This document shows, piece after piece, positions 10,375-25,586 of a stretch of DNA of 32,801 nt; within the stretch, counting starts at the first letter, position 1; each line of letters begins with the position of its first letter. This DNA is from an uncultured Alphaproteobacteria bacterium. Its GTDB lineage: Bacteria; Pseudomonadota; Alphaproteobacteria; HIMB59; GCA-002718135. Position numbers and translations under genes: made by a program. A model generated the notes under the pieces. The model made no database searches. It saw only the letters and a program-made list of their open reading frames with translations, and was not told the DNA's origin. The stretch covers positions 1-32,801 of the forward strand of contig CACOVJ010000010.1 of assembly GCA_902630465.1 (NCBI GenBank), in the 5' to 3' direction.

Positions 10375-11334
10375 ATGGAGTTGACCTTAATTTATACTAT
10401 AATAGGTTTTGGACTCGCAGCATATTCTGTTATTGCAAACGACTCTGTTCAAACTCTCGGAACATTTATAGCTTCAAACCAACGTTTTAAATGGTACTGG
10501 TTAGCTACTGCTGGCTCTGCTGTACTAGCATTTACACTTATATATGGGTGGAACATTAACGATGGTGATATTACCTTTGGACGTTTAAATAAGATTCCAT
10601 ATCAAACTATTCAGTGGTACCACGCTGCTGCTCCATTAATTTTAGTACTTCTTACAAGAGGTGGAATTCCAGTATCTACTACTTTCTTAGTTTTGTCTGC
10701 ATTTGCATCAACAGTTGTATTAGAAAAAGTTCTGATGAAGTCTGTAATTGGTTACGGATTAGCAGCAATGATAGCCTATATGGTTTGGATTGGTGTAAGT
10801 TATTTTATCAATGAAAAATTTGATAAAGTTCAAGATAAACACAGAAGACCATGGGTAATAGCTCAATGGTGTACAACTGGTTTTCTTTGGTACACATGGT
10901 TAAGTCATGATATTGCGAATATAGCTGTCTTCCTTCCTCGTGAACTTCCATTCAGTTTATTAATAGGAATCATTGCTCTATTAAGTGTTCTCTTATTTTA
11001 TATCTTTTGGGATAGAGGCGGACGTATTCAACGAGTTGTTTATTCAAAAACTGGAACACGTTATACTCGTTCAGCCACTATAATAGATTTTGTTTATGCA
11101 GTCATTCTACTTTACTTTAAGCAATACAATGATATTCCAATGTCAACTACATGGGTCTTTGTTGGTTTATTATGCGGAAGAGAATTAGCAATATCGACAA
11201 TGAACAAAGATTATAAACTTCGTTATGTCTTTCCATTAATTGGAAAAGATTTTCTTAAAATGATTTTTGGATTAACAGTATCTGTTGGAATTGTTTTATC
11301 AATTCATTATGTTTTGATACCAAACGGTTTTTAA
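10375..11334 (+). CDS. Divergent PiT-family (inorganic phosphate transporter-like) permease
   Basis: This is a probable inner-membrane permease related to PiT phosphate transporters. It has 319 residues and about 9-10 hydrophobic segments. Both inverted PiT repeats are visible in degenerate form: YSVIANDSVQTLGTF at 17-31 and GGIPVSTTFLV at 96-106 in the first half, then SHDIANIAVFLP at 177-188 and IPMSTTWVFVGLL at 254-266 in the second. The canonical GANDxxN is reduced to ANDSVQ and SHDIAN, so substrate and ion coupling may differ from true PiT. A conventional PiT is present at 14780, which makes this a second, diverged copy. The location at the edge of a phosphorus island supports a role with phosphate or a related oxyanion. 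Its last 4 bases overlap the convergent SET gene. Confidence 0.7.
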   Translation: MELTLIYTIIGFGLAAYSVIANDSVQTLGTFIASNQRFKWYWLATAGSAVLAFTLIYGWNINDGDITFGRLNKIPYQTIQWYHAAAPLILVLLTRGGIPVSTTFLVLSAFASTVVLEKVLMKSVIGYGLAAMIAYMVWIGVSYFINEKFDKVQDKHRRPWVIAQWCTTGFLWYTWLSHDIANIAVFLPRELPFSLLIGIIALLSVLLFYIFWDRGGRIQRVVYSKTGTRYTRSATIIDFVYAVILLYFKQYNDIPMSTTWVFVGLLCGRELAISTMNKDYKLRYVFPLIGKDFLKMIFGLTVSVGIVLSIHYVLIPNGF

Positions 11335-11828
11335 AGTTTACCTTTTTTCTTTTTGAGTTCTTTTTTTAATTTAGGCCAATCATTATCACTTAAAATATAA
11401 CCTACACAATTTCTGGAACCACACTTACAAATGTGATCCACAAAATCTGTATCAAAAGGATAACCGTAGTTATAGAAAAGCTCGGCTCCTTTTTTTATTT
11501 GTTTAATGGAAGAGATCCAAATTTCGTTATCTATAATATCTACTTCACAATTTGGATTACATGAATGATTAATAAATTTTGCAAAATTATAATCAACATC
11601 ACCGTCTATGTCGTATCTCTTGTTTAGCTCAAATACATAAACCATGCCGTTATTTTTATCTTTTTTTGCTTTGCGGATTTGTTTATCAGCTCTTTTGTCA
11701 CCCTCTCTTTTTGTAACTTTATCCCCTATATACTGAATAACTTTTGAGCCTTTTTTGATATCATTTTTGGCAAATAAACCCGAACCGTGAAGAGGAGATT
11801 TTTTTTTGAACCAGAGTTTTTGTGCCAT
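11331..11828 (-). CDS. SET-domain protein (putative lysine methyltransferase)
   Basis: This is a small SET-domain protein, expected to methylate a lysine using S-adenosylmethionine; its substrate is unknown. It has 165 residues. SPLHGSGLFAKNDIKKG at 11-27 is the SET N-terminal strand region, FINHSCNPNC at 85-94 is the SAM-binding NHSCxPN motif, ELFYNYGY at 116-123 carries the catalytic-site tyrosines, and CKCGSRNC at 134-141 is a post-SET zinc-binding cysteine cluster. The C-terminus is a Lys-rich tail. Bacterial SET proteins of this size with a post-SET motif are found in several proteobacteria. It is convergent with the PiT-like gene and divergent from plcP (95 bp). Confidence 0.85.
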   Translation of the reverse strand: MAQKLWFKKKSPLHGSGLFAKNDIKKGSKVIQYIGDKVTKREGDKRADKQIRKAKKDKNNGMVYVFELNKRYDIDGDVDYNFAKFINHSCNPNCEVDIIDNEIWISSIKQIKKGAELFYNYGYPFDTDFVDHICKCGSRNCVGYILSDNDWPKLKKELKKKKGKL

Positions 11829-11884
11829 ATATTTATGATTAATCTATTAGATTACGTTGATATGCAAATAAATTATATTCTTAA

Positions 11885-11913
11885 ACGCATCTTTTATGTA
11901 TATAGACGCTTCT
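11885..11913 (+). repeat. Direct repeat ACGC(A/T)TCT upstream of plcP
   Basis: ACGCATCT at 11885-11892 and ACGCTTCT at 11906-11913 match at seven of eight bases and are 21 bp apart, two helical turns, just before the plcP start. In an AT-rich gap the paired ACGC cores stand out. It could be an activator site, or chance. Confidence 0.3.
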
Positions 11914-11924
11914 GTAAATTTACA
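11913..11924. repeat. 12-bp perfect palindrome touching the plcP start codon
   Basis: TGTAAATTTACA reads the same on both strands. Its last base is the A of the plcP ATG. No Shine-Dalgarno-like sequence precedes this ATG. A dimeric repressor bound here would block initiation, but palindromes of this A/T composition also arise by chance. Confidence 0.3.
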
Positions 11925-12736
11925 TGAAATTTGAAACTAACAAAAAATATTATCGAACGATCTGGATATCAGATACGCATTTAGGGACTAGTGGATGTAA
12001 AAGCTCCATGCTTTTAGAATTCTTAAAAGAAACAGATTCGGAATATTTATTCTTGGTAGGCGATATTGTCGATGGATGGCGCATGCGTAAGAAAATGTAT
12101 TGGCCTCAAGAACATAATGATGTGGTTCAAAAAGTTCTTAAGAAAGCTAAGAATGGAACTAAAGTAGTTCTAATTCCAGGAAATCATGACGAAGTATTAA
12201 AAGATTTTACAAATTTTTCTTTTGGGGAAATTTCAATCAAAAATGAAGATAAGCATCAATTGGCTGACGGAAGAAAAGTTCTTATTACGCACGGAGATGA
12301 ATTTGATGCTGTCATTATTAATGCGAGATGGTTAGCTAAAGTTGGATCAGCACTCTATGAATATTTATTAAAATTAAATAATGTATTTAATTTTATTCGA
12401 CGAAAAATGGGTTTGTCTTACTGGTCACTATCTCAATATTTAAAAAAGAAAACAAAACACGCAACTAATTTTATTAGTAACTTTGAGTTTGCTGTATCTG
12501 ATAGAGCAAGAAGGGAAAATGCCGATGTTGTCGTATGTGGTCATATACATAGACCTGAAATAAAAGAATTAAATGGTGTCTTGTATTGTAATGATGGTGA
12601 CTGGATTGAAAGTTGCACAGCTTTAGTAGAAGATGAAGTTGGTAATTTATCAATTTTAAATTGGCCGGAAGAAAGAGAAAAATTAAAGTTAGTTTCTCTT
12701 GAAGAAAGACGTAAAATTAAAGAGGATGCAGCATAA
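11924..12736 (+). CDS. plcP: PlcP-type metallophosphoesterase (phospholipase C, lipid remodelling)
   Basis: This belongs to the PlcP family of calcineurin-like phosphoesterases, which remove phospholipid headgroups to give diacylglycerol during phosphate starvation in marine heterotrophs. Among its 270 residues, the metal-site motifs are DTH at 17-19, GDIVDGW at 46-52, GNHDE at 86-90, THGDEFD at 122-128 and CGHIHRPEI near 206-214. The order resembles LpxH-like UDP-diacylglucosamine hydrolases, the main alternative. The immediate downstream glycosyltransferase, overlapping by 11 bases, is the diagnostic partner of plcP and decides the call. The only ATG available is at 11924; no clear ribosome binding site precedes it. 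Confidence 0.87.
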   Translation: MKFETNKKYYRTIWISDTHLGTSGCKSSMLLEFLKETDSEYLFLVGDIVDGWRMRKKMYWPQEHNDVVQKVLKKAKNGTKVVLIPGNHDEVLKDFTNFSFGEISIKNEDKHQLADGRKVLITHGDEFDAVIINARWLAKVGSALYEYLLKLNNVFNFIRRKMGLSYWSLSQYLKKKTKHATNFISNFEFAVSDRARRENADVVVCGHIHRPEIKELNGVLYCNDGDWIESCTALVEDEVGNLSILNWPEEREKLKLVSLEERRKIKEDAA

Positions 12737-13751
12737 AAAAATTGCTTTAATAAGCGATGCATGGGTTCCTCAGGTAAATGGTGTCGTTAGAACATTTCAA
12801 AGCATAATCCCTATTTTAGAAAATAAAGGGTTTGAGATAAAAATTCTTCATCCTGAAATGTACAATAATTTTAGTTATCCGTGGTATAAAGAAATAAAAA
12901 TATCTTATAATACTAAAAAAGTTACAAAAGAATTTTTTGAAAGTTTTAATCCTGACATCATTCATATAATTACTGAAGGTCCAGTTGGATTTGCTGGAAG
13001 AAAATATTGTAAGAGAAATAATCTAAAATATACCTCTTCATTCCACACGCGTTTTCCCGACTACATAAAGCAAAGAGCGTTTATTCCAAAAACATTAACT
13101 TACTCAATTTTGAGAAGTTTACATGACGATTCCTATAAAGTCTTAGTTCCATCTGATTCGATGATCCAAGAATTGAAAAAATATAACTTTAAAAATTTAA
13201 AAGTCTGGAACAGGGGTGTTGACACTAGACTTTTTGATCCAAATAAAAGAAATAGAGCAGATAAAAATTTACAGCTTACTTATGTAGGACGTGTTGCGAT
13301 TGAAAAAAATATTGAAGCATTTTTAAATCTAAAAGGAGATTATATAAAAACTGTAGTTGGTGATGGTCCTGAGCTACAAAAATACATTAAGAAGTATCCT
13401 GAAGTTAACTTTGTTGGATTAAAAGAAGGTGAAGAGCTTGCTGGATACTATGCTAACGCTGATGTATTTGTTTTTCCATCTAAAACAGATACTTTAGGTA
13501 ATGTAATTCTTGAAGCTCTGGCATGTGGAACGCCTATTGCTGCCTTTCCAGTTACTGGTCCAAAAGATATTTTACAAAATTCAAATTTAAATACCTTGGA
13601 TGAAAATCTGAATGCCTCAGTTAAGAAAGCTCTGAAAGTTAGCAGAAATGATTGTAGAAATTTCGCTCTAAAATTCAAGTGGGATGATTGTACTAATGAA
13701 TTTTTACAATCACAAATAGATGCGAATAGTGGTGCTTTATTATTTAGTTGA
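12726..13751 (+). CDS. agt: Agt-type diacylglycerol glycosyltransferase (GT4)
   Basis: This is a GT4-family glycosyltransferase that probably adds glucose or glucuronic acid to the diacylglycerol released by PlcP, making glycolipids that replace phospholipids under phosphate limitation. I place the start at ATG 12726 (341 residues, MQHKKIALISDAWVPQVNG), overlapping plcP by 11 bases. A TTG 27 bases upstream would add nine charged residues. Family features are the N-terminal SDAWVPQVNGVVRT acceptor-side loop, SSFHTRFPDY, VWNRGVDTRLFDP near 165-177, and the nucleotide-sugar motif around FPSKTDTLGNVILEALACG. The pattern also fits SQD2-like sulfolipid or mannosyltransferases, but coupling to plcP favours Agt. 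Confidence 0.87.
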   Translation: MQHKKIALISDAWVPQVNGVVRTFQSIIPILENKGFEIKILHPEMYNNFSYPWYKEIKISYNTKKVTKEFFESFNPDIIHIITEGPVGFAGRKYCKRNNLKYTSSFHTRFPDYIKQRAFIPKTLTYSILRSLHDDSYKVLVPSDSMIQELKKYNFKNLKVWNRGVDTRLFDPNKRNRADKNLQLTYVGRVAIEKNIEAFLNLKGDYIKTVVGDGPELQKYIKKYPEVNFVGLKEGEELAGYYANADVFVFPSKTDTLGNVILEALACGTPIAAFPVTGPKDILQNSNLNTLDENLNASVKKALKVSRNDCRNFALKFKWDDCTNEFLQSQIDANSGALLFS

Positions 13752-13759
13752 TTTTATTT

Positions 13760-13987
13760 TTAAGCAAATAAATAAATATACCCAATTAAAAAAAGAGGTA
13801 ATTGCAATCCAAAATTAGTTAACAAAGCTTTGTCTCTAGTCATGTATCCAACTACCGACCATCCAACTGCACCTATTCCATGAATAATAATATTATAGGG
13901 ATATATATTGATATTAGTCAGTAATATTCCTGATAAGACTAAAAAGGTACTAAACCACTTGATTCTATTGATCGAGACATCTGTCAT
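13760..13987 (-). CDS. Small two-helix membrane protein, unknown function
   Basis: This is a 75-residue hydrophobic protein that I do not recognise with certainty. It opens MTDVSINRIKW, a polar N-terminus, followed by a helix at about 12-28, a second hydrophobic segment around IIHGIGAVGWSVVGYMT, a short charged turn (RDK), and a third hydrophobic end (LPLFLIGYIYLFA). The gene is supported by a clear Shine-Dalgarno sequence (AGGAG, complement of 13993-13997), unusual in this window. It diverges from the DUF47-PiT pair and ends eight bases from the agt stop, so it is enclosed within the phosphorus island and could share its control. Confidence 0.68.
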   Translation of the reverse strand: MTDVSINRIKWFSTFLVLSGILLTNINIYPYNIIIHGIGAVGWSVVGYMTRDKALLTNFGLQLPLFLIGYIYLFA

Positions 13988-13992
13988 AAATT

Positions 13993-13997
13993 CTCCT
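13993..13997 (-). promoter_or_regulatory. Shine-Dalgarno sequence of the small membrane protein
   Basis: On the minus strand AGGAG stands five bases before the ATG (ATAGGAGAATTTATG). Most genes in this window have no such site, so it supports this short ORF being real and fixes its start. Confidence 0.65.
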
Positions 13998-14053
13998 ATT
14001 TTCTTTAATTTTTGTCTTTTAAATGTATCTTTAGGATAAAGATATTAATCAAA

Positions 14054-14071
14054 ATGTAACGAAATTTTAAC
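14054..14071 (+). promoter_or_regulatory. Candidate Pho box before DUF47-PiT
   Basis: ATGTAAC-gaaa-TTTTAAC is a pair of related 7-mers with an 11-bp period, the geometry of a PhoB binding site (consensus CTGTCAT-N4-CTGTCAT, with CTGTAAC variants in alphaproteobacteria). TATAAA at 14088-14093 could be the -10 element and the DUF47 ATG follows at 14111. The match to consensus is partial (T at position 2 and A at position 6 shared in both halves) and the background is AT-rich, so this is a candidate only. It could also serve the divergent small membrane protein gene. Confidence 0.4.
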
Positions 14072-14110: not shown

Positions 14111-14773
14111 ATGTTCGGATTAAAAAGTGCATCATTATTTGGTGAAACCAAAAAGCTTGAGAGAGAAATAGACGAATTTGTTGATATTGTCTCTGAAGTA
14201 GGTTTGGTATTTAAATCTATAGTTCCTACTTATCTTAACCATTCTGCTAATGGTAAATTTGAAGAAATGGTAGAAAAAGTTAAAGAAATGGAAAGTAAGG
14301 CAGACAAAATTACGAAAGATGTTGAGCATACTCTTTATGAAGAAACACTAATCCCAGATGCAAGAAGTGATGTTTTACGACTTCTCGAGCATATTGATGA
14401 ATTGATTGGTATGTATCAAGGAAATTGTTATCACTTCTCTATTCAAAAACCTAACTTTCCAAAAGAGTTTCATGATGATCTAATTGAATTAACAGAGACT
14501 GTTGTTAATTGTGTCGAGTCACTTTGTTTAACTGTCCGATCATTTTTTAGAGATATTAAATCAGTTAGAGATAATGCACATAAAGTTACATTCTATGAAA
14601 AAGAATCGGATATTAAATTTAGTTCTCTCGCTAGAAGAATTTTTGATTCAGAGTTACCTTTAGATCAAAAAATGCATCTTCGTTATTTTGTAGAAAAAAT
14701 TGATCGTATATGTGATCAAGCAGAAGACATAGCTGACGAGGTTCAAATTTACGCTATTAAACGTTCCGTTTAA
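14111..14773 (+). CDS. DUF47 (PhoU-like) phosphate-transport accessory protein
   Basis: This is a cytoplasmic all-helical protein of the DUF47/TIGR00153 family, usually encoded directly before a PiT transporter and thought to regulate it, by analogy with PhoU. The 220 residues are mostly amphipathic helices with many Glu, Asp and Lys. Family landmarks are the repeated acidic helix segments EMESKADKITKDVEHTLYEE near 58-77 and EKIDRICDQAEDIADEVQ near 194-211, corresponding to the E/DxxAD metal-binding motifs of PhoU. The stop lies six bases before the pit ATG, so the pair is cotranscribed. Confidence 0.92.
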   Translation: MFGLKSASLFGETKKLEREIDEFVDIVSEVGLVFKSIVPTYLNHSANGKFEEMVEKVKEMESKADKITKDVEHTLYEETLIPDARSDVLRLLEHIDELIGMYQGNCYHFSIQKPNFPKEFHDDLIELTETVVNCVESLCLTVRSFFRDIKSVRDNAHKVTFYEKESDIKFSSLARRIFDSELPLDQKMHLRYFVEKIDRICDQAEDIADEVQIYAIKRSV

Positions 14774-14779
14774 TTTTCA

Positions 14780-15832
14780 ATGGAAATTACAATTCTAATT
14801 TTTTTACTTGGTGGTTTATTTTTAGGTTGGTCGCTTGGTGCCAATGATGCAGCAAATGTTTTTGGAACTGCTGTTGGAACACGAATGGTTAGTTTCACAA
14901 CTGCAGCAATTATTTGTAGTATCTTTGTAATTCTTGGTGCGATTATAAGTGGGGCAGGAACAACTGAAACGTTAGGAAAGCTTGGTGCAATAAATGCTTT
15001 GCCTGGAGCATTCGCTGCCTGTGTAGCTGCAGGGATATCAGTTTACTTAATGACAAAAGTTGGTTTGCCAGTTTCTACAACACAAGCAATTGTAGGAGCG
15101 ATCGTTGGTTGGAATTTATACACTGGATCTTCAACTAATATTCAAGTTTTATTAACTATATTGAGTACATGGATTTTGTGTCCAATAATAGCTGGCATTA
15201 TTGCAATGGGATTATTTACTTTTACAAAAAGAGTTATTTTAAATAGAAAATTACATATCCTAAGACTGGATGCTTATACAAGAACAGCATTACTTTTAGC
15301 GGGTGCTTTTGGTGCTTATAGTTTAGGTGCGAATAATATTGCCAATGTAATGGGGGTTTTTGTTCCTATTTCTCCTTTCACAGATGTGAATATGGGTAAC
15401 TTATTTATTTTTTCATCAAAAGAACAATTATTTTTACTGGGTGGTTTAGCAATTGCTGTTGGTGTCTTTACGTACTCAAAAAGAGTAATGTATACAGTTG
15501 GAAACGATCTATTGAAGATGTCGCCTGTGGCAGCTTTTATTGTTGTTGTTTCACATTCTATAGTTTTATTTTTATTTGCTTCTCAAGGTATTAGTGCTTT
15601 TTTACAATCTATTAATCTTCCTTCTATTCCACTTGTTCCTGTTTCTAGTTCGCAGGCTGTTGTTGGAGGTGTTATTGGAATAGGACTTTTAAAAGGTGGT
15701 AAAGAAGTACAATGGTCTATTGCTGGCAGAATTTCTTTGGGTTGGATGACATTACCTATAATAGCAGCATTAATTTCTTTGATAGTTTTATTTATTCTAG
15801 AGAATATTTTTAATTTAACAGTTTCTTTTTAA
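14780..15832 (+). CDS. pit: PiT-family inorganic phosphate transporter
   Basis: This is an inner-membrane phosphate permease, driven by cations in its family. It has 350 residues. Both PiT repeats are canonical: GANDAANVFGTAVGTR near 20-35 with LPVSTTQAIVGAIVGW near 96-111, and GANNIANVMGVF near 183-194 with VPVSSSQAVVGGVIG near 286-300. It is shorter than E. coli PitA (about 500 residues) and lacks the large central loop, the short form common in marine bacteria and archaea. The preceding DUF47 gene supports the call. Its stop overlaps the convergent phosphatase gene by 4 bases. Confidence 0.94.
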   Translation: MEITILIFLLGGLFLGWSLGANDAANVFGTAVGTRMVSFTTAAIICSIFVILGAIISGAGTTETLGKLGAINALPGAFAACVAAGISVYLMTKVGLPVSTTQAIVGAIVGWNLYTGSSTNIQVLLTILSTWILCPIIAGIIAMGLFTFTKRVILNRKLHILRLDAYTRTALLLAGAFGAYSLGANNIANVMGVFVPISPFTDVNMGNLFIFSSKEQLFLLGGLAIAVGVFTYSKRVMYTVGNDLLKMSPVAAFIVVVSHSIVLFLFASQGISAFLQSINLPSIPLVPVSSSQAVVGGVIGIGLLKGGKEVQWSIAGRISLGWMTLPIIAALISLIVLFILENIFNLTVSF

Positions 15833-16353
15833 TTTACGGCTCTGTAAGCAAAAATAAAGTCTTCTTGAATTTTAGATTCAATTGCACCTTTTCGTCTTGA
15901 GCGAACTAAATCGATTGCTTCTTGTTTAGGATAATTAAATTCTATAAGTAAAATAGCGGCGATAGTTCCCGCTCTTCCTTTACCACCACGGCAATGTAAA
16001 ACTATATTTTTTCCATCTATCAATTCGTTTTTTAATAAAACTTTTGTTGTTTCCCACTTATATTTAAAATCTTTATCAGGTGCTCCCATGTCATAAATGG
16101 GTAAATGATACCAATGTAAATTATGATCATAAATATTTTTAACGAATAATTTTTTGTCACATAATTTTTCAAATTCTACATCTTCAACAAATGAAGTAAT
16201 CGAACTACACTTATTATTCTTAAATAATTCAAGTTCAGAATTTAAAATATCTTCTTCAAAAATTCCCTTAGTATTTAGTCCGGGAAATGAAGTTAAAATA
16301 ATTTTTCCTGAAAATGATTTTGAATCTATAAAATCGTATTCGCTAAATTGCAT
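15829..16353 (-). CDS. Dual-specificity / protein-tyrosine-phosphatase-like protein
   Basis: This is a cysteine-dependent phosphatase of the DSP/CDKN3-like fold. It has 174 residues. The catalytic loop HCRGGKGR at 120-127 gives nucleophile C121 and R127 (CX5R), followed by AGTIAAILL. The general acid is probably D88 or D93 in PIYDMGAPD. It could act on phosphotyrosine, on a small phosphoester or on a phospholipid. It starts three bases after the stop of the HD-domain oxygenase gene, so the two are cotranscribed and probably belong to the phosphonate cluster. I cannot name the substrate. Confidence 0.84.
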   Translation of the reverse strand: MQFSEYDFIDSKSFSGKIILTSFPGLNTKGIFEEDILNSELELFKNNKCSSITSFVEDVEFEKLCDKKLFVKNIYDHNLHWYHLPIYDMGAPDKDFKYKWETTKVLLKNELIDGKNIVLHCRGGKGRAGTIAAILLIEFNYPKQEAIDLVRSRRKGAIESKIQEDFIFAYRAVN

Positions 16354-16356
16354 TTA

Positions 16357-16923
16357 TTATTGACTATCAAGAAAAGACTTTCTTGCTTCTTCTAAATAAG
16401 GGCGAAAGTGTTCAACATCTGGTGTTTTTTTATCAAGAATTTTTGCTAAATCATCAAATCTTCTTAACTCGACAGCTTCATCCATAAAAGGTTTACTAAT
16501 AAATTCTTCTGCTTCTTCTTTTGTAAACGGACCACCTTGAACTTTTAAAGAAAGTTTTGATGCCTCAGATAAATTATCATAATATCCGTCTTCAACACTT
16601 GATAAATATCTTTTTGAAGCAACATGAGCCCTAATTGGTAAAATAACATCTTCACCGAAATATTTTTTTAGAAAATCAGCTCCTAAGTTTTCATGATGTC
16701 CATCCTTACCTTCATGTATAGGGTCTCCATCTTCATAAATAAGATGTCCGACATCGTGCAGTAAAGCTGCAGCAATTGTTGGGCCTGGTAATTCATGTTG
16801 TTCAGCTAGTTCAGCACATTGAAGGGCGTGCTCTAGTTGTGTCACGTCCTCATTCCCATACTGAATATCTGCACCCTTTGTTTTTAAAAGATTTAGCAAA
16901 TAATCTACTATATTTTCTTCCAT
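16357..16923 (-). CDS. PhnZ/TmpB-like HD-domain oxygenase, phosphonate-associated
   Basis: This belongs to the phosphonate-operon-associated HD-domain family. PhnZ and TmpB in this family are mixed-valent di-iron oxygenases that cleave the C-P bond of 1-hydroxy-2-aminoethylphosphonates to an amino acid and phosphate. It has 188 residues. Visible candidates for all key sites: Y22 and E25 (YGNEDVTQLEH), H32, H56-D57 (LLHDVGH), H76/H77 (GHHENLGADFL), H100 and K104 (AHVASKRYL), and a late Asp in FDDLAKIL. These line up with PhnZ Y24, E27, H34, H58, D59, H80, H104 and K108 (numbering from memory). It diverges from phnW and is followed by the phosphatase gene. No PhnY/TmpA-type 2-oxoglutarate hydroxylase is seen in the window, so the natural substrate is open. 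Confidence 0.85.
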   Translation of the reverse strand: MEENIVDYLLNLLKTKGADIQYGNEDVTQLEHALQCAELAEQHELPGPTIAAALLHDVGHLIYEDGDPIHEGKDGHHENLGADFLKKYFGEDVILPIRAHVASKRYLSSVEDGYYDNLSEASKLSLKVQGGPFTKEEAEEFISKPFMDEAVELRRFDDLAKILDKKTPDVEHFRPYLEEARKSFLDSQ

Positions 16924-17019
16924 TCTAATTAATAATTAACTTATTAGAAAATAATTTCAATTCTAAGTTTAATACGATTGATAAGATTTATATTAATATT
17001 TAAGAAGATAATAAGTTTA
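16924..17019. promoter_or_regulatory. Divergent promoter region of the HD-oxygenase and phnW operons
   Basis: These 96 bp separate two diverging operons of the phosphonate cluster and must contain both promoters. The arms CTAAT at 16924-16928 and ATTAG at about 16942-16946 form a loose inverted repeat, but the sequence is so AT-rich that I give it little weight. I see no Pho-box-like pair here. AAGAAG lies about 12 bases before the phnW ATG. Confidence 0.35.
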
Positions 17020-18117
17020 ATGGATAAAAAATTATTAACACCAGGTCCCCTAACAACCTCAATGTCTACAAAAGAAGCTATGCTTCATGATTGGGGTTCA
17101 AGAGATAAAAAATTTATTGATCTCAATGCATCAATAAGAAGTTCTTTGGTCCGTTTAATTGAAGGAGAAGGCCAATATCAATGTGTTCCAATGCAAGGAA
17201 GTGGAACATTTGCTGTTGAATCTATGGTTAGTTCACTAACGTCAAAAGACTCAAAAATACTGATTTTAATAAATGGTGCATACGGACAGCGTATGAAAAA
17301 AATGTGCACTTACTTAAATAGAGATTTTATAGAGTATGAAGTTGCAGAACATGAAGTACATGATTTAATTAAAATTGAAGAGCTAATTGATAATAATGAC
17401 CTAACGCATGTTTTCACTGTCTATTGTGAAACAACATCTGGTATTTTAAATCCTATTGAAGAAATTGCAAATTTAGTTGAAACAAAAAAACTATCTTTAT
17501 TTATAGATGCTATGAGTGCTTTTGGGGCTTTACCTCTTAGTGCTAAACAAATTAAGTTTGATGCAGTGGCTGCTTCATCAAATAAATGTTTAGAAGGTGT
17601 CCCAGGTGTTGGTTTTATACTTGTAAAAAATGAGGTTATTGAAAATGCAAAAGGAAATAGTCATTCACTTAGTTTAGATTTGTATGATCAATGGCAAGCG
17701 ATGGAAAAAAATAAACAATGGCGCTTTACTCCTCCGACACATGTTTTAGCAGCTTTCAATCAAGCTATTAAAGAACATGAAAAAGAAGGCGGAGTTCAGG
17801 GAAGACATCAAAGATATAAAAGTAATTGTGAAATAATATGTACCGGTATGAAAGAATTAGGTTTTGAACAATTACTTCCTGATAATTTACAAGCACCAAT
17901 CATTATAACTTTTAAACAACCTAGTGATTCAAGTTTTAATTTTGAAAAATTTTATAATGCACTTAGTGAAAAAGATTTTTTAATTTATCCTGGCAAACTA
18001 ACTGTTGCTGAAACATTTCGCATAGGTTGTATTGGTAATTTAAATGAAAATGATATGCACGATACAATAAAAGCTGTTAAGGAAGTAATTCAAGAATTAG
18101 GTTTAAAAATTAATTAA
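17020..18117 (+). CDS. phnW: 2-Aminoethylphosphonate:pyruvate transaminase PhnW
   Basis: This PLP enzyme converts 2-aminoethylphosphonate and pyruvate to phosphonoacetaldehyde and alanine, the first step of 2-AEP use. The start is ATG 17020 (365 residues): the conserved LLTPGPLTTS opening begins at residue 5, while an upstream TTG at 16978 would only add a hydrophobic stretch atypical of the family. Signature segments are AMLHDWGSRDKKF at 20-32 and VPMQGSGTFAVE at 56-67, with D163 in FIDAMSAFG and the Schiff-base lysine K189 in AASSNKCLEGVPG. It leads an apparent operon with the cupin (6-base gap) and the phosphodiesterase. Confidence 0.95.
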   Translation: MDKKLLTPGPLTTSMSTKEAMLHDWGSRDKKFIDLNASIRSSLVRLIEGEGQYQCVPMQGSGTFAVESMVSSLTSKDSKILILINGAYGQRMKKMCTYLNRDFIEYEVAEHEVHDLIKIEELIDNNDLTHVFTVYCETTSGILNPIEEIANLVETKKLSLFIDAMSAFGALPLSAKQIKFDAVAASSNKCLEGVPGVGFILVKNEVIENAKGNSHSLSLDLYDQWQAMEKNKQWRFTPPTHVLAAFNQAIKEHEKEGGVQGRHQRYKSNCEIICTGMKELGFEQLLPDNLQAPIIITFKQPSDSSFNFEKFYNALSEKDFLIYPGKLTVAETFRIGCIGNLNENDMHDTIKAVKEVIQELGLKIN

Positions 18118-18123
18118 TTATAA

Positions 18124-18756
18124 ATGACACAAGAAATTGAGATTCCACTAATTCAAGCTACTGATGAAAATCTTAAGGGATACGGCTACTTAATTGATAC
18201 GTATGAAAAAAGTGAAATTGAAATTGTTACTTGGCCAAAACAAGGTTGGAGAGATATAGAAGAAGGAACAGGAAATGAAGGAGGGACAACAGAAGGATCA
18301 TTTGATACTTGGTGGCAAGGTGATACTCTCTATGGACAAAATAATGCTGTTCAACATAAAAGTGATTATGAAGTTGATGGAAAATATATTCTTGGATATT
18401 CAACTAATCCTGATAATGATTTACAAAAAGAAAATTATAAAACTCCAGATAAAATTTATTTATGGCATGCCAATTATCATCCAGATGGTGGACAACTTTT
18501 TTATCCTGAAGAAAAAAAACCTTTCATTTGTCCTTTAGCCTTACCAACTGACGATATAGAACCAGAGCAGTTTAAAGCATTTTATTGTGACGGATCAAAA
18601 GGTTTATATATTCATCCAAATATTTGGCATGAAGGAGTGTTTCCAGTTACGGAAAAACAATCTTTTCAAGGAAAACAAGGTAAGGTACATGCTAGAGTTA
18701 GCATAGACTTAAAAGAGGAATTTAATAAATATATTTATTTTAAAACCATGATCTAA
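18124..18756 (+). CDS. Ureidoglycolate-lyase-like cupin protein in the phnW operon
   Basis: This is a 210-residue protein that resembles the ureidoglycolate lyase (AllA, PF04115) cupin family, which is usually about 160-170 residues. Clustered histidines could bind a metal: H115 and H119 in LWHANYHPDGGQ, then H164 and H169 in YIHPNIWHEG, with H189 in a C-terminal HARVSIDLKEEF motif. None of the neighbouring genes concern purine or allantoin breakdown, so a true ureidoglycolate lyase role is unlikely. Its place six bases after phnW suggests work on a phosphonate intermediate or a by-product. I cannot name a reaction; the family assignment is from remembered motifs. Confidence 0.7.
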   Translation: MTQEIEIPLIQATDENLKGYGYLIDTYEKSEIEIVTWPKQGWRDIEEGTGNEGGTTEGSFDTWWQGDTLYGQNNAVQHKSDYEVDGKYILGYSTNPDNDLQKENYKTPDKIYLWHANYHPDGGQLFYPEEKKPFICPLALPTDDIEPEQFKAFYCDGSKGLYIHPNIWHEGVFPVTEKQSFQGKQGKVHARVSIDLKEEFNKYIYFKTMI

Positions 18757-18773
18757 TCATAAATTTATATTAA

Positions 18774-19565
18774 ATGATAAAAATTATTCACCTTTCAGAC
18801 CCTCATATTTATATAGATAAAATTCATGGCATAGATCCTGTTAGTAAATTTAAAAAAGCACTAAGTCATATAAAAAATAATCACAGTGATGCTGATTTAT
18901 TTGCAATCACAGGTGATATTACAGATTTAGGTGATAAAGATTCTTATCAATTATTTATAAAAATAATTGATGAAGCAGAGTTACCTAAGAATTTAAATCC
19001 TCAACTAATTATAGGTAATCATGATAAAAGAGATGAGTTTAAAATAAACTTTCCTAATATTGAAACTGATCCAAATGGATTTATTCAATACTTTAAGGAT
19101 ATAGGTAATAAACGATTAATTTTTATAGATACGAATCTGGTTAATACTCACCAAGGACATTATTGTGAAAAAAGACAGGAATGGTTGAATAATATTTTAA
19201 GTAAGACTAACACAGAAACTTATATCTTTATGCATCATAATCCACTGGCATTAGTAAATGAGGAGAGTGATGGAATAGGATTACAACAAAAAGAAGAGTT
19301 TCAAAAAATTTTAACTGAACATAATAAGATGATAAAACATATTTTTTTTGGACATCAACATATTACAAGTTCTGGTTCTTATTGTGGTGTTACTTTTTCC
19401 TCACCAAGAAGTACTTGGTCTCCTCTAATACCTAATTTTTCAAATGAATATCGTTTAGGAACTGCTAATACTGATACAAATTATAATGTTGCAATAATTC
19501 GATCTGACGCCTTGATTATTCATACAGAGGATTTTTTAAAAACTAAAGTTAATTGGTTTAAATAA
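18774..19565 (+). CDS. CpdA/GpdQ-like metallophosphoesterase
   Basis: This is a calcineurin-like phosphodiesterase of the class III cyclic-nucleotide/glycerophosphodiesterase type. It has 263 residues and no signal peptide, so it is cytoplasmic. The metal-site motifs are in order: LSDPHIY at 6-12, TGDITDLGD near 46-54, GNHDKRDEF near 82-90, FMHHNPL near 152-158 and FFGHQHITSSG near 195-205. Known relatives hydrolyse cAMP, glycerophosphodiesters or phosphonate monoesters, so the substrate is open. It is 17 bases after the cupin gene in the phnW operon, which suggests release of phosphonates or phosphate from esters. It is distinct from PlcP at 11924. Confidence 0.85.
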   Translation: MIKIIHLSDPHIYIDKIHGIDPVSKFKKALSHIKNNHSDADLFAITGDITDLGDKDSYQLFIKIIDEAELPKNLNPQLIIGNHDKRDEFKINFPNIETDPNGFIQYFKDIGNKRLIFIDTNLVNTHQGHYCEKRQEWLNNILSKTNTETYIFMHHNPLALVNEESDGIGLQQKEEFQKILTEHNKMIKHIFFGHQHITSSGSYCGVTFSSPRSTWSPLIPNFSNEYRLGTANTDTNYNVAIIRSDALIIHTEDFLKTKVNWFK

Positions 19566-19572: not shown

Positions 19573-20679
19573 TTATTTTTTCTCTATTACAAAAATTTCA
19601 TTATTAAAATAAAGCCCTTTATTCTTGGAAACAACTGTTTGAACAATTTTTTCATAGTTTTTGGTTTTTTCCACCTTCATTACTTTATCATCATCCATTT
19701 GATTTACATATATAGATGCATTCCATGCAGAAAAAATAAGAGAGGTGGCTATTCCATTACTTATTTCTGTTGGAAGAGCTCTCAATTTACATTTAATAAT
19801 TTTTTTTTCTCCAAAAGATAATCGGCTTAATAAGTCTTTATCTAAATTTTTCTTAAGATAGGAAATGATACTATTTCCAAGATATGGAAATGGGTTCTCT
19901 TTTGGCCAAATTTTATTAATTATTTCATTAGCAGGATCTTTTCCTGAAGCGTGAATAGTTAATAATTTCCCTTTTGATTTTAACGCTCTAATCATAGGTT
20001 CAATGACATATTTTGATTTCTTTTCAGCTGAAATTCTTGACCGATAAGGTTGTGAAGCAATGATAAGATCAAATTTATTATCTGATTTTCTTTTGGTAGG
20101 TATTAATTCATTAATATTAAATTCTTGATCTTCGCGGTAGATAACCATCACTGATGGCTCTTTATAAGTATGGTTACCTGACTTTTTATTAATTTCTATA
20201 TTCCATTTTTTTTCTAAAAATTCATTTTGTTTTCTTAACTGTTGAGCAAATTCAAGGGAAGTGTCGCCTTTTAATTTAATAGTATTCCAGTTAATTTTTT
20301 TCTGTTTAACTTCATTTTTTGATTTTAGGTTCGCAGCTTCAGCGTAGTGTAAATTTGAAATTACAAAAACTGTGTTCTTATGCTCAACAAACCTGTCAGG
20401 TAATTTTTCTAAACCTAATCTTACATCTTCTATGCTTATTTCTTTTGTGCAAACTAATAGAGGAATATTAGGCCTAGCCTCGTGACACTGGCGCATAACA
20501 TTCATAAGTAAAGAACCATCTCCCATACCAGCATCAAATATTTTTATGCCAGGTTTTTGGGGTTTAATTTTATTTACATGAGGGCGAATAGCGTCAGCAA
20601 TTTGATTTTTTTCATTTGTTGTTGTTACAAATAATAAATATTTTTGCCTATTATCATAAAATCTAAAATTTTTTTTCAT
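19573..20679 (-). CDS. SAM-dependent methyltransferase-like protein, unknown substrate
   Basis: This is a 368-residue protein with a Rossmann-fold SAM-binding signature: IKIFDAGMGDGSLL at about 45-58 is motif I, and DLIIASQPYRS at 204-214 resembles the motif IV position. The N-terminus FRFYDNRQKYLLFVTTTNEK is distinctive and recurs, as I recall, in a conserved alphaproteobacterial family without a defined role. The gene starts two bases after the stop of the iron alcohol dehydrogenase, so it is the last gene of the phnA-phnY operon or of a sub-operon. Possible substrates include an aminophosphonate, but nothing in the sequence proves this. Confidence 0.68.
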   Translation of the reverse strand: MKKNFRFYDNRQKYLLFVTTTNEKNQIADAIRPHVNKIKPQKPGIKIFDAGMGDGSLLMNVMRQCHEARPNIPLLVCTKEISIEDVRLGLEKLPDRFVEHKNTVFVISNLHYAEAANLKSKNEVKQKKINWNTIKLKGDTSLEFAQQLRKQNEFLEKKWNIEINKKSGNHTYKEPSVMVIYREDQEFNINELIPTKRKSDNKFDLIIASQPYRSRISAEKKSKYVIEPMIRALKSKGKLLTIHASGKDPANEIINKIWPKENPFPYLGNSIISYLKKNLDKDLLSRLSFGEKKIIKCKLRALPTEISNGIATSLIFSAWNASIYVNQMDDDKVMKVEKTKNYEKIVQTVVSKNKGLYFNNEIFVIEKK

Positions 20680-20681: not shown

Positions 20682-21794
20682 CTAATAAAGTCCCATAGAT
20701 TTAGCAGAAGATATGAAAGCTTCTTTATTGCCAATAAAGTTTTTACCTCGTTCTCCTAAAAAGGCATCATCTACTATATTATTCCATTCTTGAACAGATA
20801 CTTTTATCTCATTTAAATTAAGAGGAACTTCTAAAGAACGCATAAATTCACTCAGACTTTCTGCGGCATTTTCAAGATTGTCATTAAATATTGATTTTAG
20901 TCTATCCTCAGCTACACTATCAATACCAATCATACTTTTAGTAATCATAGGTAAGGTAAATGAACATGCAATACCGTGCTGAATGCCATAATTGAGTGTT
21001 ACAGGATATGATAAATTATGAGCAATAGCAGTTTTTGTATTTGAAAACGCAAGGCCTGCATAAACACAAGCGCGTGCAATATTTGAGCGTAATTGAATAT
21101 TTCTTAAATCTTTAGAAAGAAGTGGTAAATTTTCTAATATTAATTTTGATGCTTGTATTGCATAAGAAGCAGAAATTGGGTTAGCATTAATATTCCAAAT
21201 ACTTTCCATTGAATGGGATAGTACATCTAAGCCAGTTGAAATGGTCAAACCTAAAGGCTTATCGACCATAATAGATGGATCGATAATTGCTTTTTCTGCA
21301 TAAAGAGATTTATGCTCCAAAGATAATTTATTATTTTTTTCTTTATCCCATATTGTGGCCCAACACGTAAGATCACTTGACGTTCCTGAAGTAGTAGGTA
21401 CTGCAATAATCTTGATTGGATTTTCGACTCTAGGGCTTTTCTTATTTCGAACAAAATCTGTTAGATATTCTTGCTTATCTTTAAATGCAGCAATTGCTTT
21501 AGCTGTGTCTGTAACGGAGCCACCACCTATAGCTAAAATATAATCTACAGTTTCATTGATTGAAGAAAATTTATTTTGTAACTCTAAAATATCCTTATAG
21601 TCTGGATTAGGCTGGACATCCGTTATAACAGATAGTGGTGGATTAAAAGAGGAATTTAACTCATCACTATATTTTTTAAAAATTTCATCTGGGTGAGTGA
21701 TTATAATATAGTTCTTACTTTTAAGAATATCATGAACTTCTTTAAATCTATATTCTCCGAATATAATTTCGACAGGATTAAAATAATTATACAT
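20682..21794 (-). CDS. Iron-containing alcohol dehydrogenase, phosphonoacetaldehyde-reductase-like
   Basis: This is a group III NAD(P)-dependent alcohol dehydrogenase that probably interconverts phosphonoacetaldehyde and 2-hydroxyethylphosphonate (HEP). The 370 residues show the nucleotide-binding GGGSVTDTAKAIA at 90-102, VPTTSGTSSDLT at 132-143, and all four metal ligands: D190, H194 (GLDVLSHSMES), H259 (IAHNLSYP) and H273 (YGIQHG). The overall look matches PhpC-type phosphonoacetaldehyde reductases, and its neighbours phnY and phnA support a phosphonate substrate. In a degradation operon it may run in the oxidative direction to bring in HEP. A 98-bp gap separates it from phnY. Confidence 0.82.
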   Translation of the reverse strand: MYNYFNPVEIIFGEYRFKEVHDILKSKNYIIITHPDEIFKKYSDELNSSFNPPLSVITDVQPNPDYKDILELQNKFSSINETVDYILAIGGGSVTDTAKAIAAFKDKQEYLTDFVRNKKSPRVENPIKIIAVPTTSGTSSDLTCWATIWDKEKNNKLSLEHKSLYAEKAIIDPSIMVDKPLGLTISTGLDVLSHSMESIWNINANPISASYAIQASKLILENLPLLSKDLRNIQLRSNIARACVYAGLAFSNTKTAIAHNLSYPVTLNYGIQHGIACSFTLPMITKSMIGIDSVAEDRLKSIFNDNLENAAESLSEFMRSLEVPLNLNEIKVSVQEWNNIVDDAFLGERGKNFIGNKEAFISSAKSMGLY

Positions 21795-21892
21795 TATCTT
21801 AAATTATTTTTTTTTTAGTAAATAAAGTTGAGTGAGTATTTGTTTAGATTTTGAATATACGCATTTCGTAGTTGTAGTAAGGGGCATTTTTT

Positions 21893-23332
21893 TTACCAAG
21901 GTAATGAGAAAGTTTTTACATTAGTAAAGCTTTTCATTGCTTCAATCACACCTTCCTTGTAACCAAGGCCTGAATCTTTAATCCCTCCAAAAGGAGACAT
22001 TTCAATTCTGTAGCCTGGAACCTCCCATATATTTACAGTTCCAACACTTAAACCTTGAATATATTTTTTCGCTCGCATGAAATTATTTGTACATACACCA
22101 GATGATAATCCGAATGCTGTTGAGTTAGATATTTTAATTACTGCATCATCATCATTTGGCACACGTATAATAGGGATCACTGGGCCAAATGTTTCTTCTA
22201 AAACTAATTCACTTTTAGGATCAACATTATCTAACACTATTGGAGGCAGCAAAGCAGCATTTCTTCCTGGATGATATAAAATTTTTGCACCGTCTTCTTC
22301 AGCCATTGAAACCCTTTTGTCAAAAAGTTCTGCTGCTTCAGCATTAACAACCGTACCTAAATCTGTTTCCATATTCATAGGATCACCAAATTTAATTTTC
22401 TTAGCACGCTCAAGAGCCATTTCAGCAAATTGGTCTGCAATAGATTCTTGTACTAATATTCTTTTAACAGCTGTACAACGTTGCCCGGAGTTTTTTGTAG
22501 CTCCGGTTACAGCTAACTCAACAGCTTTTTTAAGATCATCAGCATCTAAATCATTCAAAATAATTAATGGATCATTGCCACCAAGCTCAAGAACTGTTCT
22601 TTTGTAACCAGCTTGTTCTGCAATTAATTTTCCTACACCAACACTGCCTGTAAAAGTAATTAGATCGATATTTGAATTTTTGATCATTTCAGATCCAATA
22701 TCTTGAGGCCATCCAGTCACAACTGAAAACATTTCAGGTGGTAAGCCAGCTTCATATAAAACATCAGCGAGCACCATTGCTGTCAAAGGCGTTAATTCTG
22801 TCTGCTTACATACTGTACAATTATTAGTTGCAATTGAAGGCGCAATTTTATGGGCTACCATATTCAAAGGGTGATTAAATGGAGTGATTGCTGAAATTGC
22901 TCTTAAAGGCTCTCTTATTGTAAATATTTTTCTGGCTTTTCCATGTGGAGTTAAATCACAAGAAAATACTTCTCCATCATCGAGAATGCAAAGTTGTGCA
23001 GTTAATGAAAATACATCAAATGCTCTTCCTACTTCATATAAAGAATCTTGTTTTGAGATACCAAGTTCCAAAGTAATAATATCAGAAATTTCACCTTTTC
23101 TTTTTACAAGTTCTTCTGCTGCAGTTTGAAGAATTTTTTGTCTCTCATATCTAGTAAGTTTTGGTTGGTAATTTGCAGCAATATCTAGAGCCTTTCTTGC
23201 ATGTTCTGCGGTACCAGCTGGCACCGTTCCAATTACTTCACCTGTAAAGGGGTATTCAACATTTATAGTTTTATCAGAGGTAACTTTTTCTCCACCAATA
23301 CGCATTGCTTCATTAATCATTTTTTTGTGCAT
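21893..23332 (-). CDS. phnY: Phosphonoacetaldehyde dehydrogenase PhnY
   Basis: This NAD-dependent aldehyde dehydrogenase oxidises phosphonoacetaldehyde to phosphonoacetate. It has 479 residues. Catalytic C286 lies in [12 protein letters not shown]249 in VLELGGNDP and N153 in TPFNHPLN. The C-terminal [19 protein letters not shown] segment is typical of phosphonate-specific members. The name should not be confused with the 2-oxoglutarate hydroxylase also called PhnY in the PhnY/PhnZ system. The ATG at 23332 overlaps the phnA stop by one base; internal ATGs at codons 5 and 10 are possible alternative starts. It lies between PhnW and PhnA in the pathway. Confidence 0.94.
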
Positions 23333-24573
23333 TATAAGGCTCCATTAATTGCATAGTAAAACGCATCATAGTTATATAATTGTTTGCTAATATCTAAATT
23401 TTTTAATTTTAAATTTGATATGAATGGTACTTCTCTCTCATGAAGTCCACCATGTGAACGTAAAGGTTCATTTAATCCTGAAAGATTGTGTTTATCTTCT
23501 GATGAGCCAATAGTCATAAATTCTGATGACATACATATTATATCACCCATTCTATCAGTAGGTAAATTATAAGCCGAGCATCCTTCATCTTTTGTTAAAA
23601 CAACTTCTATATCTTTTATTTCTTTGATAGCATTTATAACTGAGTCTACCTTGCTCTTGTCTTTTAAATAGATTGTTGCAAAAGAACCAAGTGATCCATG
23701 ATGAACAACATATGGGTCAGTGATTGGTAAAATTACCTTAGTCATGTTAGGTTCAAATTTTTTATCTAAAAAATCTTGGAGGAATATTGCATTAGGAGAA
23801 CCATCTTCTTTGGATTTTGGTTTCATACCATGATCTGCTGTGATAATTATAGATGTATTTTCCTTGTTTAAGTGGCCTATGTATTTATCAAACATCGCAT
23901 AAAACTTGTTGGCTATTTCATTTCCTGGTGCATATTTGTGTTGGATATAATCAGTTGTTGATAAATACATTATATTTGGTTTAAACTCTTCAAGAAGTTT
24001 TACACCTGCAGCCATTACAAATTCAGAAAGTCCCTCAGAATATACTTCTGGCACTGGCATCCCTAACCAATCGTTTACATTATCCATACCATTAAGATCT
24101 TTTGTTGCTTGATCAGATTTTTCAGCAGAAAAACATATTGCTCTCTCATCATTAAAGCTTAACCCATTTCCTAAAAGTCCTCTCAATTTGTCTTTAGCAG
24201 TGACAAGAGCAATTTTAGAACCAGAATTGTAAAATTTTTCAAAAATAGTTGGTGCTCGCATATATTTTGGATCATTCATCATTACTTCTTCACCAGTTTC
24301 AGGTGTATAAAAGAAATTTCCACATATACCGTGAACAGAACTTGGCTGTCCGGTTACAATGGAAATATTATTTGGATTAGTAAAACTTGGAATAGCACTG
24401 TGAACTAGAAGATTTTCTCCATTTAAAATTAATTTATCAAGATTTGGAGTGAGATTGGATTTGGATGCTTCTTCAAGGTATTCTTTTTGACTACCATCAA
24501 GGCAAATTACAATGGCAGTTTTTGAGAAAGCACTTAGATATTCTCTATTATTAATTTCTAAATTATCGGTCAT
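23332..24573 (-). CDS. phnA: Phosphonoacetate hydrolase PhnA
   Basis: This is a zinc-dependent alkaline-phosphatase-superfamily enzyme that splits phosphonoacetate into acetate and phosphate, the C-P bond cleavage step of the PhnW-PhnY-PhnA route. It has 413 residues. The expected active-site residues are all present: D26 (VICLDGS), nucleophile T65 (PSFTNPNN), D208 and H212 (STTDYIQHK), D247-H248 (TADHGM) and H374 (LRSHGGLHE). They match Sinorhizobium PhnA positions with a constant offset of three (from memory). There is no signal peptide, so it is cytoplasmic. It is the first gene of its operon and diverges from the DMT permease gene. Confidence 0.95.
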
Positions 24574-24612
24574 AATTTCAACTATATATAAAAATTAATT
24601 TATAGTTATATG

Positions 24613-24624
24613 GAGTTTAAACTC
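24613..24624. repeat. 12-bp perfect palindrome upstream of phnA
   Basis: GAGTTTAAACTC lies 40 bases before the phnA start in the 164-bp divergent region. A second, imperfect inverted repeat, CAAC-N7-GTTG, is at 24654-24668. Either could be an operator for a dimeric regulator; LysR-type regulators often control phn genes, but none is encoded here. Confidence 0.38.
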
Positions 24625-24737
24625 AATACTAATTCAAATATTTGTTAATAAAACAACTAATATTGTTGCTTTTATAAGACAAAAATATTTACTGAAGGAA
24701 TTACTTTGACAGGCATGAAGGAAATTCTTATTTATTG

Positions 24738-25586
24738 ATGACATTGTCAGTGAATTTTATTTTTATCTTAATTCTTATTTCTGCTCTTTGTCATGCAGTT
24801 TGGAGCGCTATAATAAAATCAAGTAAGAACCCTTTATCGTTAATGGGTATAACGTCTGTCCTAGAAGTTACTATTTTTTTTCCTTTAACATTTACTGTTC
24901 CATTTCCAACTTTAGAGGCTTGGTATTTTTTAATTGCAACTGTGATTATTCATGTCATTTATAGATTAAATGTAATTTATTCTTACAGATATGGTGATCT
25001 TTCTTACATATATCCAATTTCCAGAGGAAGTTCGTGTTTGTTTGTAGCTATCATCAGTATTTTATTTTTAAGTTCAGATATTAGTGTCTCTGGTTTTATT
25101 GGAATATTAATTGTTTGCATTGGATTATTTTTAATTTCTTATTCTAAAAATTTATCTTTTAACTTTAGAGGTTTTGCTCTCGCAATATCAACCGCAATTC
25201 TAATTACTGCATACACTTTGGTTGACGGGGTTGGGGTTAGACTTTCTGAAAATGGTTTTTCTTATATTTACTGGCTCTTCACACTTAATGGAATACCTTT
25301 ATTAATCATTGGTTTGATCTCTAAAGATGGTTTACGAAAAAGAGGAACGTACACTTTTAGGTCAGGGATTGCTGCTGGTGTATTTGCAACAAGTAGTTAC
25401 GCAATTGTTGTTTGGAGTATGCAATTTATAGAAATAGCTTATGTCTCAAGTATTAGAGAAATAAGCATTGTCTTTGCCGCAATTATTGGAATGCTTTTCT
25501 TATTTGAGAAGAATGCAAAATCTAGAATAATACCTGCTATTTTAATAGTGAGTGGTATTTCTGTTGTTTATTTTCAGATTCTTTAG
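24738..25586 (+). CDS. DMT/EamA permease, phosphonate-utilisation-associated type
   Basis: This is an inner-membrane transporter of the drug/metabolite (EamA) superfamily, about ten helices in 282 residues. I use ATG 24738; a TTG one codon earlier is also possible. The opening (LSVNFIFILILISALCHAVW) and IRLNVIYSYRYGD-type loop (here YRLNVIYSYRYGDLSYIYPI near 72-91) match what I recall of the phosphonate utilisation associated membrane protein family (TIGR03340). Divergence from phnA over a shared 164-bp control region supports a role in moving 2-AEP, another phosphonate or a product. The substrate and direction are unproven. Confidence 0.78.
   Translation: MTLSVNFIFILILISALCHAVWSAIIKSSKNPLSLMGITSVLEVTIFFPLTFTVPFPTLEAWYFLIATVIIHVIYRLNVIYSYRYGDLSYIYPISRGSSCLFVAIISILFLSSDISVSGFIGILIVCIGLFLISYSKNLSFNFRGFALAISTAILITAYTLVDGVGVRLSENGFSYIYWLFTLNGIPLLIIGLISKDGLRKRGTYTFRSGIAAGVFATSSYAIVVWSMQFIEIAYVSSIREISIVFAAIIGMLFLFEKNAKSRIIPAILIVSGISVVYFQIL

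Follow-up and report, generated by a model that had tools for sequence, protein, structure and literature searches.

A single PiT-like gene and the phoB-phoU-pstBACS-phoR cluster as alternative contents of one slot in the phosphorus locus of HIMB59/AEGEAN-169 bacteria

The closest described counterpart of the locus analysed here is fGIp, an island of the order that the literature names HIMB59/AEGEAN-169 (PMC10734472; PMC10308909), for which homologous recombination has been proposed and whose versions track phosphate (PMC10734472). Our subject, the window, is a stretch of 32,801 nucleotides forming one whole contig (CACOVJ010000010.1; G000:C10 in our numbering) of a genome of this order (1.02 Mb, 77% complete), and in particular its gene for P319, a divergent PiT-superfamily protein encoded between MurJ and a SET-domain gene. 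This MurJ-SET slot has the chromosomal position of fGIp, and in the window's relatives the pst/phoU/phoBR content, the SET-domain gene and the fixed place are shared with it; content and genome AG-891-K05 (G079 here) suggest that the two are the same island. The window differs in having no pst operon and P319 in its place. In the main-text parts of PMC10734472, the survey covers only pst-bearing islands (150 genomes, 61.72%), neither P319 nor a filled pst-less slot was found, and the phosphonate island is of the C-P lyase type, whereas the window carries PhnW, PhnY and PhnA. The same parts report a Pit gene in 55 of 67 genomes of the window's family, probably the core DUF47-PiT pair described below, and two genomes of a second family in which a Pit gene has been inserted beside pst within the island. 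A swap of P319 for pst was likewise not found in the other literature searched, supplements lying outside that search.

Counterparts of other parts of the block are described in the excerpts of the literature drawn on here. The initial annotation had remarked that lipid remodelling, phosphate uptake and phosphonate breakdown were not known from one block; phosphate and phosphonate genes do share the SAR11 gMED island, an island of another bacterial order in which phosphonate genes stand beside pst and phoBR (as reported in PMC10734472). The PhnW/PhnY/PhnA pathway for 2-aminoethylphosphonate (2-AEP), also encoded in the window, occurs in >85% of Ca. Indicimonas (AEGEAN-169), with transcripts in the South Pacific Gyre (PMC11366302); we assume that this group is the window's family. 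The excerpts of that paper contain no analysis of a gene cluster or slot. Operons with plcP immediately upstream of a glycosyltransferase gene, as in the window, are known (PMC4796936), and those plcP clusters have putative Pho boxes, whereas none was found in the window. In the phnA/phnZ/phpC co-clusters of PMC9381506, phnZ is often paired with phnA, and an iron alcohol dehydrogenase lies within 2-AEP catabolic operons.

The slot and its borders in the window are as follows:

8650..10197, minus strand: MurJ, left border of the exchange slot here and in relatives, with TrpS and NfuA beyond it (Pfam MurJ 405.1 bits)
10375..11334, plus strand: P319, divergent PiT-superfamily protein, the alternative occupant of the phoB-phoU-pstBACS-phoR slot (PHO4 E 3.1e-4, 20.3 bits, below cut-off)
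11331..11828, minus strand: SET-domain protein, right border of the slot in both states (Pfam SET 81.4 bits)

The comparison set comprised 162 genomes of the order (102 of the window's genus, 8 of other genera of its family and 52 of a second family), and the named relatives are, apart from MarineAlpha5 bins, nearly all genomes of single cells (plates AG- and AH-). P319 was counted at E <= 1e-20, and PstC and PhoB in genomes scoring over the curated cut-off. Between MurJ and SET the window holds P319 only, while many members of the genus hold seven genes matching PhoB, PhoU, PstB, PstA, PstC, PstS and PhoR (annotated in L187, identified by similarity in other genomes). Across the order, 36 genomes have P319 (two of them as contig-end fragments), 100 have PstC, none has both and 26 have neither, against an expected overlap of 22.2 (hypergeometric 1.5e-19); within the genus the counts are 29 P319, 61 Pst and 12 neither (hypergeometric 3e-16). 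Both probabilities are uncorrected for relatedness. Where a stretch has MurJ in view, PhoB is the gene next to it in 26 of 28 Pst genomes and P319 in 12 of 17 P319 genomes, the window included. The second family shows both contents beside SET as well, P319 in L276 and L277 and pst in L270, L271, L272 and L275 (with an aquaporin gene between in L275), its pst genes running in the opposite direction. The SET gene overlaps phoR and is read in the same direction as phoR-pst in L187 (14664-16212), which makes the SET protein a possible member of the pst operon in genomes that have one.

Contents of the slot have been switched repeatedly, at times leaving pho or pst genes behind. A quick MurJ tree of 52 rows requires at least 14 changes of state, 7 of them forced by its starred branches, and the TrpS (42 rows) and SET (56 rows) trees give 7 and 10 changes. 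G105 with Pst and G107 with P319 have opposite states, although 1439 bp on their MurJ sides are 97.8% identical. A PhoB piece remains beside P319 in G101 and a PstS piece in G102. An apparent hybrid state occurs in G070 (L281:6227-8097), where diverged PhoB and PhoR stand beside P319 without pst; among the 59 of 102 genus genomes with PhoB over the cut-off, this is the one that has P319. Fourfold-site divergence from the window is 0.08-0.22 for P319 vs 0.26-0.49 for MurJ in 16 close genomes. Because P319 divergence reaches 0.54-0.62 in nine more distant genomes, constraint is not likely to be the reason for the low values, which fit a recent spread of the gene.

The two states also differ in where they were sampled. 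Sampling sites were taken from the tables of PMC6122165, and of the 68 genomes with plate names only those from plates tabulated there were tested. The North Atlantic yielded 9 Pst and 0 P319 genomes, and the Pacific and South-East Atlantic together (n=23) 19 P319, 3 Pst and 1 neither (Fisher 1.1e-5 for 9/0 vs 3/19, shared samples uncorrected). Outside these counts, three AH-plate genomes have P319, and all 33 genomes from plates AG-891 to AG-920, which are absent from the site table but presumably come from the Sargasso Sea, are Pst. The North Atlantic and Mediterranean are low in phosphate (PMC4796936, in part), and the P region of AG-891-K05 under-recruits in North Indian and Pacific samples according to the main-text parts of PMC10734472. 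Both statements fit the ocean split.

P319 resembles the PiT superfamily in part. A PiT protein has two repeats, and each repeat carries one ND-type signature and one P-STT signature. The first half of P319 contains ND and PVSTT, and the second PMSTT. Its first half aligns with the core PiT in an hhalign profile comparison (prob 82, E 1.1e-5), a second-family homologue scores 31.9 bits against PHO4, and the PHO4 match covers the first half of the protein in the window and the second half in L065. No match to sequences in PDB was obtained at E 1. Outside the order, relatives of P319 were found in 8 of 380 genomes of the class, some as pieces or with a stop. Carriage of P319 by viruses was considered and dropped, one IMG/VR scan confirming none.

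We think it somewhat probable that the locus is a phosphorus hub whose MurJ-SET slot is swapped between phoB-phoU-pstBACS-phoR and P319, with P319 serving as an ATP-free carrier of phosphate (or a related anion) in waters less poor in phosphate. The core modules would be DUF47-PiT for phosphate, PhnW-PhnY-PhnA for 2-AEP and a PhnZ-type HD oxygenase, joined in the subclade of the window by a pair of PlcP and glycosyltransferase genes through which glycolipid would replace phospholipid. The phoB-phoU-pstBACS-phoR content would supply sensing and high-affinity ABC uptake, and the two contents may be exchanged by homologous recombination through their shared flanks. Import by P319 most likely proceeds by ion symport, needing neither ATP nor a binding protein nor, in most cases, PhoB. 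That it takes the place of Pst-PhoBR points to uptake that is constitutive and independent of ATP. Phosphate level would then be the selecting factor, P319 being kept where phosphate is less scarce and Pst-PhoBR where it is scarcest.

Several observations weigh against this interpretation. P319 stays below the gathering cut-off of PHO4 (20.3 of 33.7 bits), its second half appears to retain only a degenerate D..N motif in place of the ND-type signature, and its halves align weakly with each other (prob 5.7); phosphate is its putative substrate. Three of the eight genomes outside the order that have a P319 relative also have PstC; exclusivity is thus a property seen in this order and not one of the protein family. 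Its probabilities, moreover, treat related genomes as independent. G070 keeps a full-length PhoB, so P319 need not be PhoB-free. On the MurJ tree, in which many branches are weak, as few changes suffice for 37-43 of 500 random labellings (the mean being 17.3), so slot state hardly follows MurJ descent. Both South-West Pacific samples (30 S) hold both states. The second family has its pst versions A and B in the Pacific (PMC10734472, main-text parts), so the ocean split may hold for the window's family only. Among the 13 P319 genomes, window included, with the interval from SET to DUF47 in view, PlcP is absent there in seven, and lipid remodelling is therefore not tied to the P319 state.

The remainder of the block reads:

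11924..12736, plus strand: PlcP-like metallophosphoesterase (Metallophos_2 52.6, Metallophos 51.8 bits), overlapping the next gene
12699..13751, plus strand: GT4 glycosyltransferase, Agt-like (Glyco_trans_1_4 66.9 bits; glycolipid synthase models below cut-off)
14111..14773, plus strand: DUF47 (PhoU_div), partner of PiT (82.6 bits, cut-off 24.4)
14780..15832, plus strand: PiT-family permease, core copy (PHO4 212 bits, cut-off 33.7), the genome's sole reported PHO4 match
15829..16353, minus strand: DSP, dual-specificity-type phosphatase with intact C(x)5R loop (PTP-SAK 47.4 bits; DSPc below its cut-off)
16357..16923, minus strand: HD, PhnZ/TmpB-like HD-domain oxygenase (Phn-HD 201.6 of 214.6; TmpB 6npa E 6e-35, PhnZ 4n71 E 3e-30)
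16978..18117, plus strand: PhnW, 2-aminoethylphosphonate:pyruvate transaminase (over cut-off in three NCBIfam models; TIGR02326 467.7 bits, cut-off 400.8)
18124..18756, plus strand: UGL, AllA-like cupin paired with PhnW (PF04115 41.4 bits; Foldseek best hit AllA 1xsq E 3e-8)
18774..19565, plus strand: MPE, SpdA-like metallophosphoesterase (Metallophos 61 bits; SpdA model 175.1 of 400)
19573..20679, minus strand: MT, methyltransferase-like orphan (weak Methyltransf_31 only)
20682..21794, minus strand: Fe-ADH, phosphonate-type iron alcohol dehydrogenase, PsrA/PhpC-like (TIGR03405 364 of 423.7, best model, below cut-off)
21893..23332, minus strand: PhnY, phosphonoacetaldehyde dehydrogenase (TIGR03250 785.8 bits, cut-off 635.65)
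23332..24573, minus strand: PhnA, phosphonoacetate hydrolase (TIGR02335 467.2 bits, cut-off 407.55)
24735..25586, plus strand: EamA/DMT permease, phosphonate-associated type (EamA 64.1 bits; TIGR03340 145.6 of 288.15, below cut-off)
25795..28913, strand not assigned: right border with FYDLN_acid, MFS, MsrQ and MsrP (domain matches; stretches of relatives)

Most gene names of the initial annotation stand: PhnW, PhnY, PhnA, the core PiT and DUF47 exceed their cut-offs, as do the GT4, Metallophos, HD, PTP-SAK and EamA domains of the block's proteins. The models for PlcP, Agt and the phosphonate-type HD and DMT proteins do not lend the same support, and of its two PiT permeases only the core copy is a clear one, the other being P319. 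No PlcP or Agt model matched, and the LpxH models gave 48 of 134 and 41.4 of 190.35, below their cut-offs; these two putative identities rest on domain, on gene order (the PlcP-like gene lying upstream of the GT4 gene) and on the overlap of the two. The SET gene, Fe-ADH, the cupin after PhnW and MT were additional to its list. MT, which matches no family over cut-off and whose predicted structure (pLDDT 36.8) is unusable, is retained beside Fe-ADH or PhnY across much of the genus.

These genes together probably form a phosphorus hub with a fixed place on the chromosome of the AEGEAN-169 family. The block is not a rare exchangeable island; what is exchanged are modules within a fixed locus, not a whole 15-kb unit. 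Matches to PhnA were obtained in 125 of the order's 162 genomes (118 over cut-off), to which the genus contributes 93 of its 102 genomes, the family's other genera 6 of 8 and the second family 26 of 52; in two of the nine PhnA-less genomes of the genus, G040 and G058, the block runs up to a contig end. We compared 40 stretches around PhnA, 27 from the window's family and 13 from the second. The order DUF47-PiT-DSP-HD-PhnW-UGL...PhnY-PhnA is mostly kept in the 27, and 80 named loci agree (the best 80 of 108, found through UGL and hence conditioned on it); G001 is rearranged, inserts separate DSP from HD in G008 and G107, and several stretches stop before DUF47. In the second family, DUF47-PiT adjoins PhnA-PhnY in 4 of 13 stretches, PhnA-PhnY comes with Fe-ADH and no PiT in view in the other 9, and PhnW is in view in none of the 13. 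The single-contig genome G110 of that family, which we take to be strain HIMB59, reads DUF47-PiT-PhnA-PhnY-FAD oxidoreductase-EamA-HAD-ABC. The modules that vary between relatives are a second, reversed PlcP-GT pair, MetE-like plus UgpBCAE-like genes, and a GDPD-ABC set. MetE-like, UgpB-like binding protein and UgpC/A/E-like transporter genes flank PhnY-PhnA in most relatives (L033:10395-12810, 15807-18811) and are lacking in the window, while a GDPD-like phosphodiesterase and an ABC transporter set lie between UGL and MPE in AH-287-M11 (L050:3735-9738) and in L092, L113 and L129. Fe-ADH is followed directly by PhnY, as in the window, in five named loci (L075, L076, L088, L142 and L144). G002 (92% complete; L032) has neither P319 nor PstC over cut-off, and its block runs into the contig end with the slot out of view.

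Readings that do without a swapped phosphate carrier can be set against these data. The initial annotation proposed one phosphate-stress regulon or exchangeable unit, and an exchangeable 15-kb island under PhoB does find some encouragement in the clustering of phosphorus genes by function and in the parts that differ among relatives. We nevertheless consider it improbable. Synteny, which the annotation itself named as the check, is largely conserved within the family, with PhnA in nearly all of the genus, so that of the exchangeable unit only the exchange of parts survives. The alternating strands give about eight likely transcription units (P319; SET; PlcP-GT; DUF47-PiT; HD-DSP; PhnW-UGL-MPE; PhnA-PhnY-FeADH-MT; EamA) and no one-operon layout. 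A single PhoB regulon was rejected: in the window genome, at its 77% completeness, PstC over cut-off is absent and the best PhoB match reaches 164.1 of 296.2 bits, and the Pho box scan of the window gave 1 hit, inside corC, vs a mean of 2.84 in shuffles (27 vs 33.57 for a looser pattern), though the scan detects a tandem repeat matching 12 of 14 just before pstS in G110 (L275:8108-8136). Inspection of SET-PlcP intergenic sequences by eye revealed neither an evident Pho box nor anything that distinguishes the two states, and nine Pst stretches of the window's family contain no Pho-box-like match above 11 of 14; G066 has an 11-of-14 match ~130 bp before DUF47 (L266:18150). These scans leave room for an unusual Pho box, which may be present. 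The window gave no match to Rfam at gathering scores and none in tRNA scans.

A more serious competitor, although in our judgement an unlikely one, holds that P319 moves another anion, such as sulfate, as CysP does, or arsenate, and that its arrival in the old pst slot had a different cause. The PiT superfamily is not restricted to phosphate, CysP being a sulfate permease, and the CysP model matches the core PiT below cut-off; the sub-threshold PHO4 score of P319 and the PstC genes alongside its relatives outside the order point the same way. Against it stand the zero overlap with PstC in 162 genomes, the fact that P319 occupies the pst slot in both families, and the split by ocean. It seems very improbable that the two states exclude each other only because the genomes share descent and the single-cell assemblies are incomplete. 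Most genomes are indeed incomplete, 26 of 162 have neither state, and in G096 PhoB lies ~1 kb from a contig end with no PstC; yet a slot that is filled by P319 and whose borders are intact cannot arise from missing contigs, the MurJ tree forces at least 7 switches, and the near-identical G105 and G107 differ in state.

On the phosphonate side, PhnW, PhnY and PhnA together convert 2-AEP into acetate and phosphate, and all three equivalog models of this hydrolytic pathway exceed their cut-offs within one cluster. The HD oxygenase remains below the curated cut-offs of the phosphonate-related models (Phn-HD 201.6 of 214.6, TmpB 159.8 of 300, PhnZ1 154.1 of 300). For a PhnY*/PhnZ pathway, the adjacent 2OG dioxygenase is absent, with no PhyH match among the block's proteins; two of the genome's three PhyH matches were examined, and neither matches a phosphonate model at 1e-10. 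Fe-ADH could feed 2-hydroxyethylphosphonate (2-HEP) into phosphonoacetaldehyde, or work in reverse, as proposed in the parts of PMC9381506 drawn on here, where phpC is read as making 2-HEP; in the window, entry of 2-HEP is equally possible. In the window's family PhnW is followed by UGL in each of the 27 stretches, all of which bear PhnW. Despite its PF04115 and fold matches, it scores 32.9 of 230 against the AllA (ureidoglycolate lyase) equivalog, and it is a candidate for a step adjoining phosphonate transamination. A role as a general phosphonate gene was rejected: beyond the order, 380 genomes of the class gave 21 hits, and in flanks of ~1.5 kb around them no phosphonate gene of the window was matched.

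Phosphate islands of marine bacteria are commonly interpreted in terms of Pst being gained or lost, whereas here the pst-less state is itself a gene. A bolder formulation, which we put forward tentatively and rate at somewhat less than an even chance, is that P319 represents a new family of short PiT-type phosphate carriers, a single-gene allele swapped for the whole of Pst-PhoBR, so that one lineage would run with phosphate sensing in one basin and without it in another. The filled pst-less state allows a direct test of which carrier wins at each phosphate level and of how a streamlined cell lives without PhoB, and P319 gives a one-gene marker of phosphate niche in a widespread lineage. It also carries a warning that lipid-remodelling and phosphonate genes can persist without the PhoB system usually assumed to control them.

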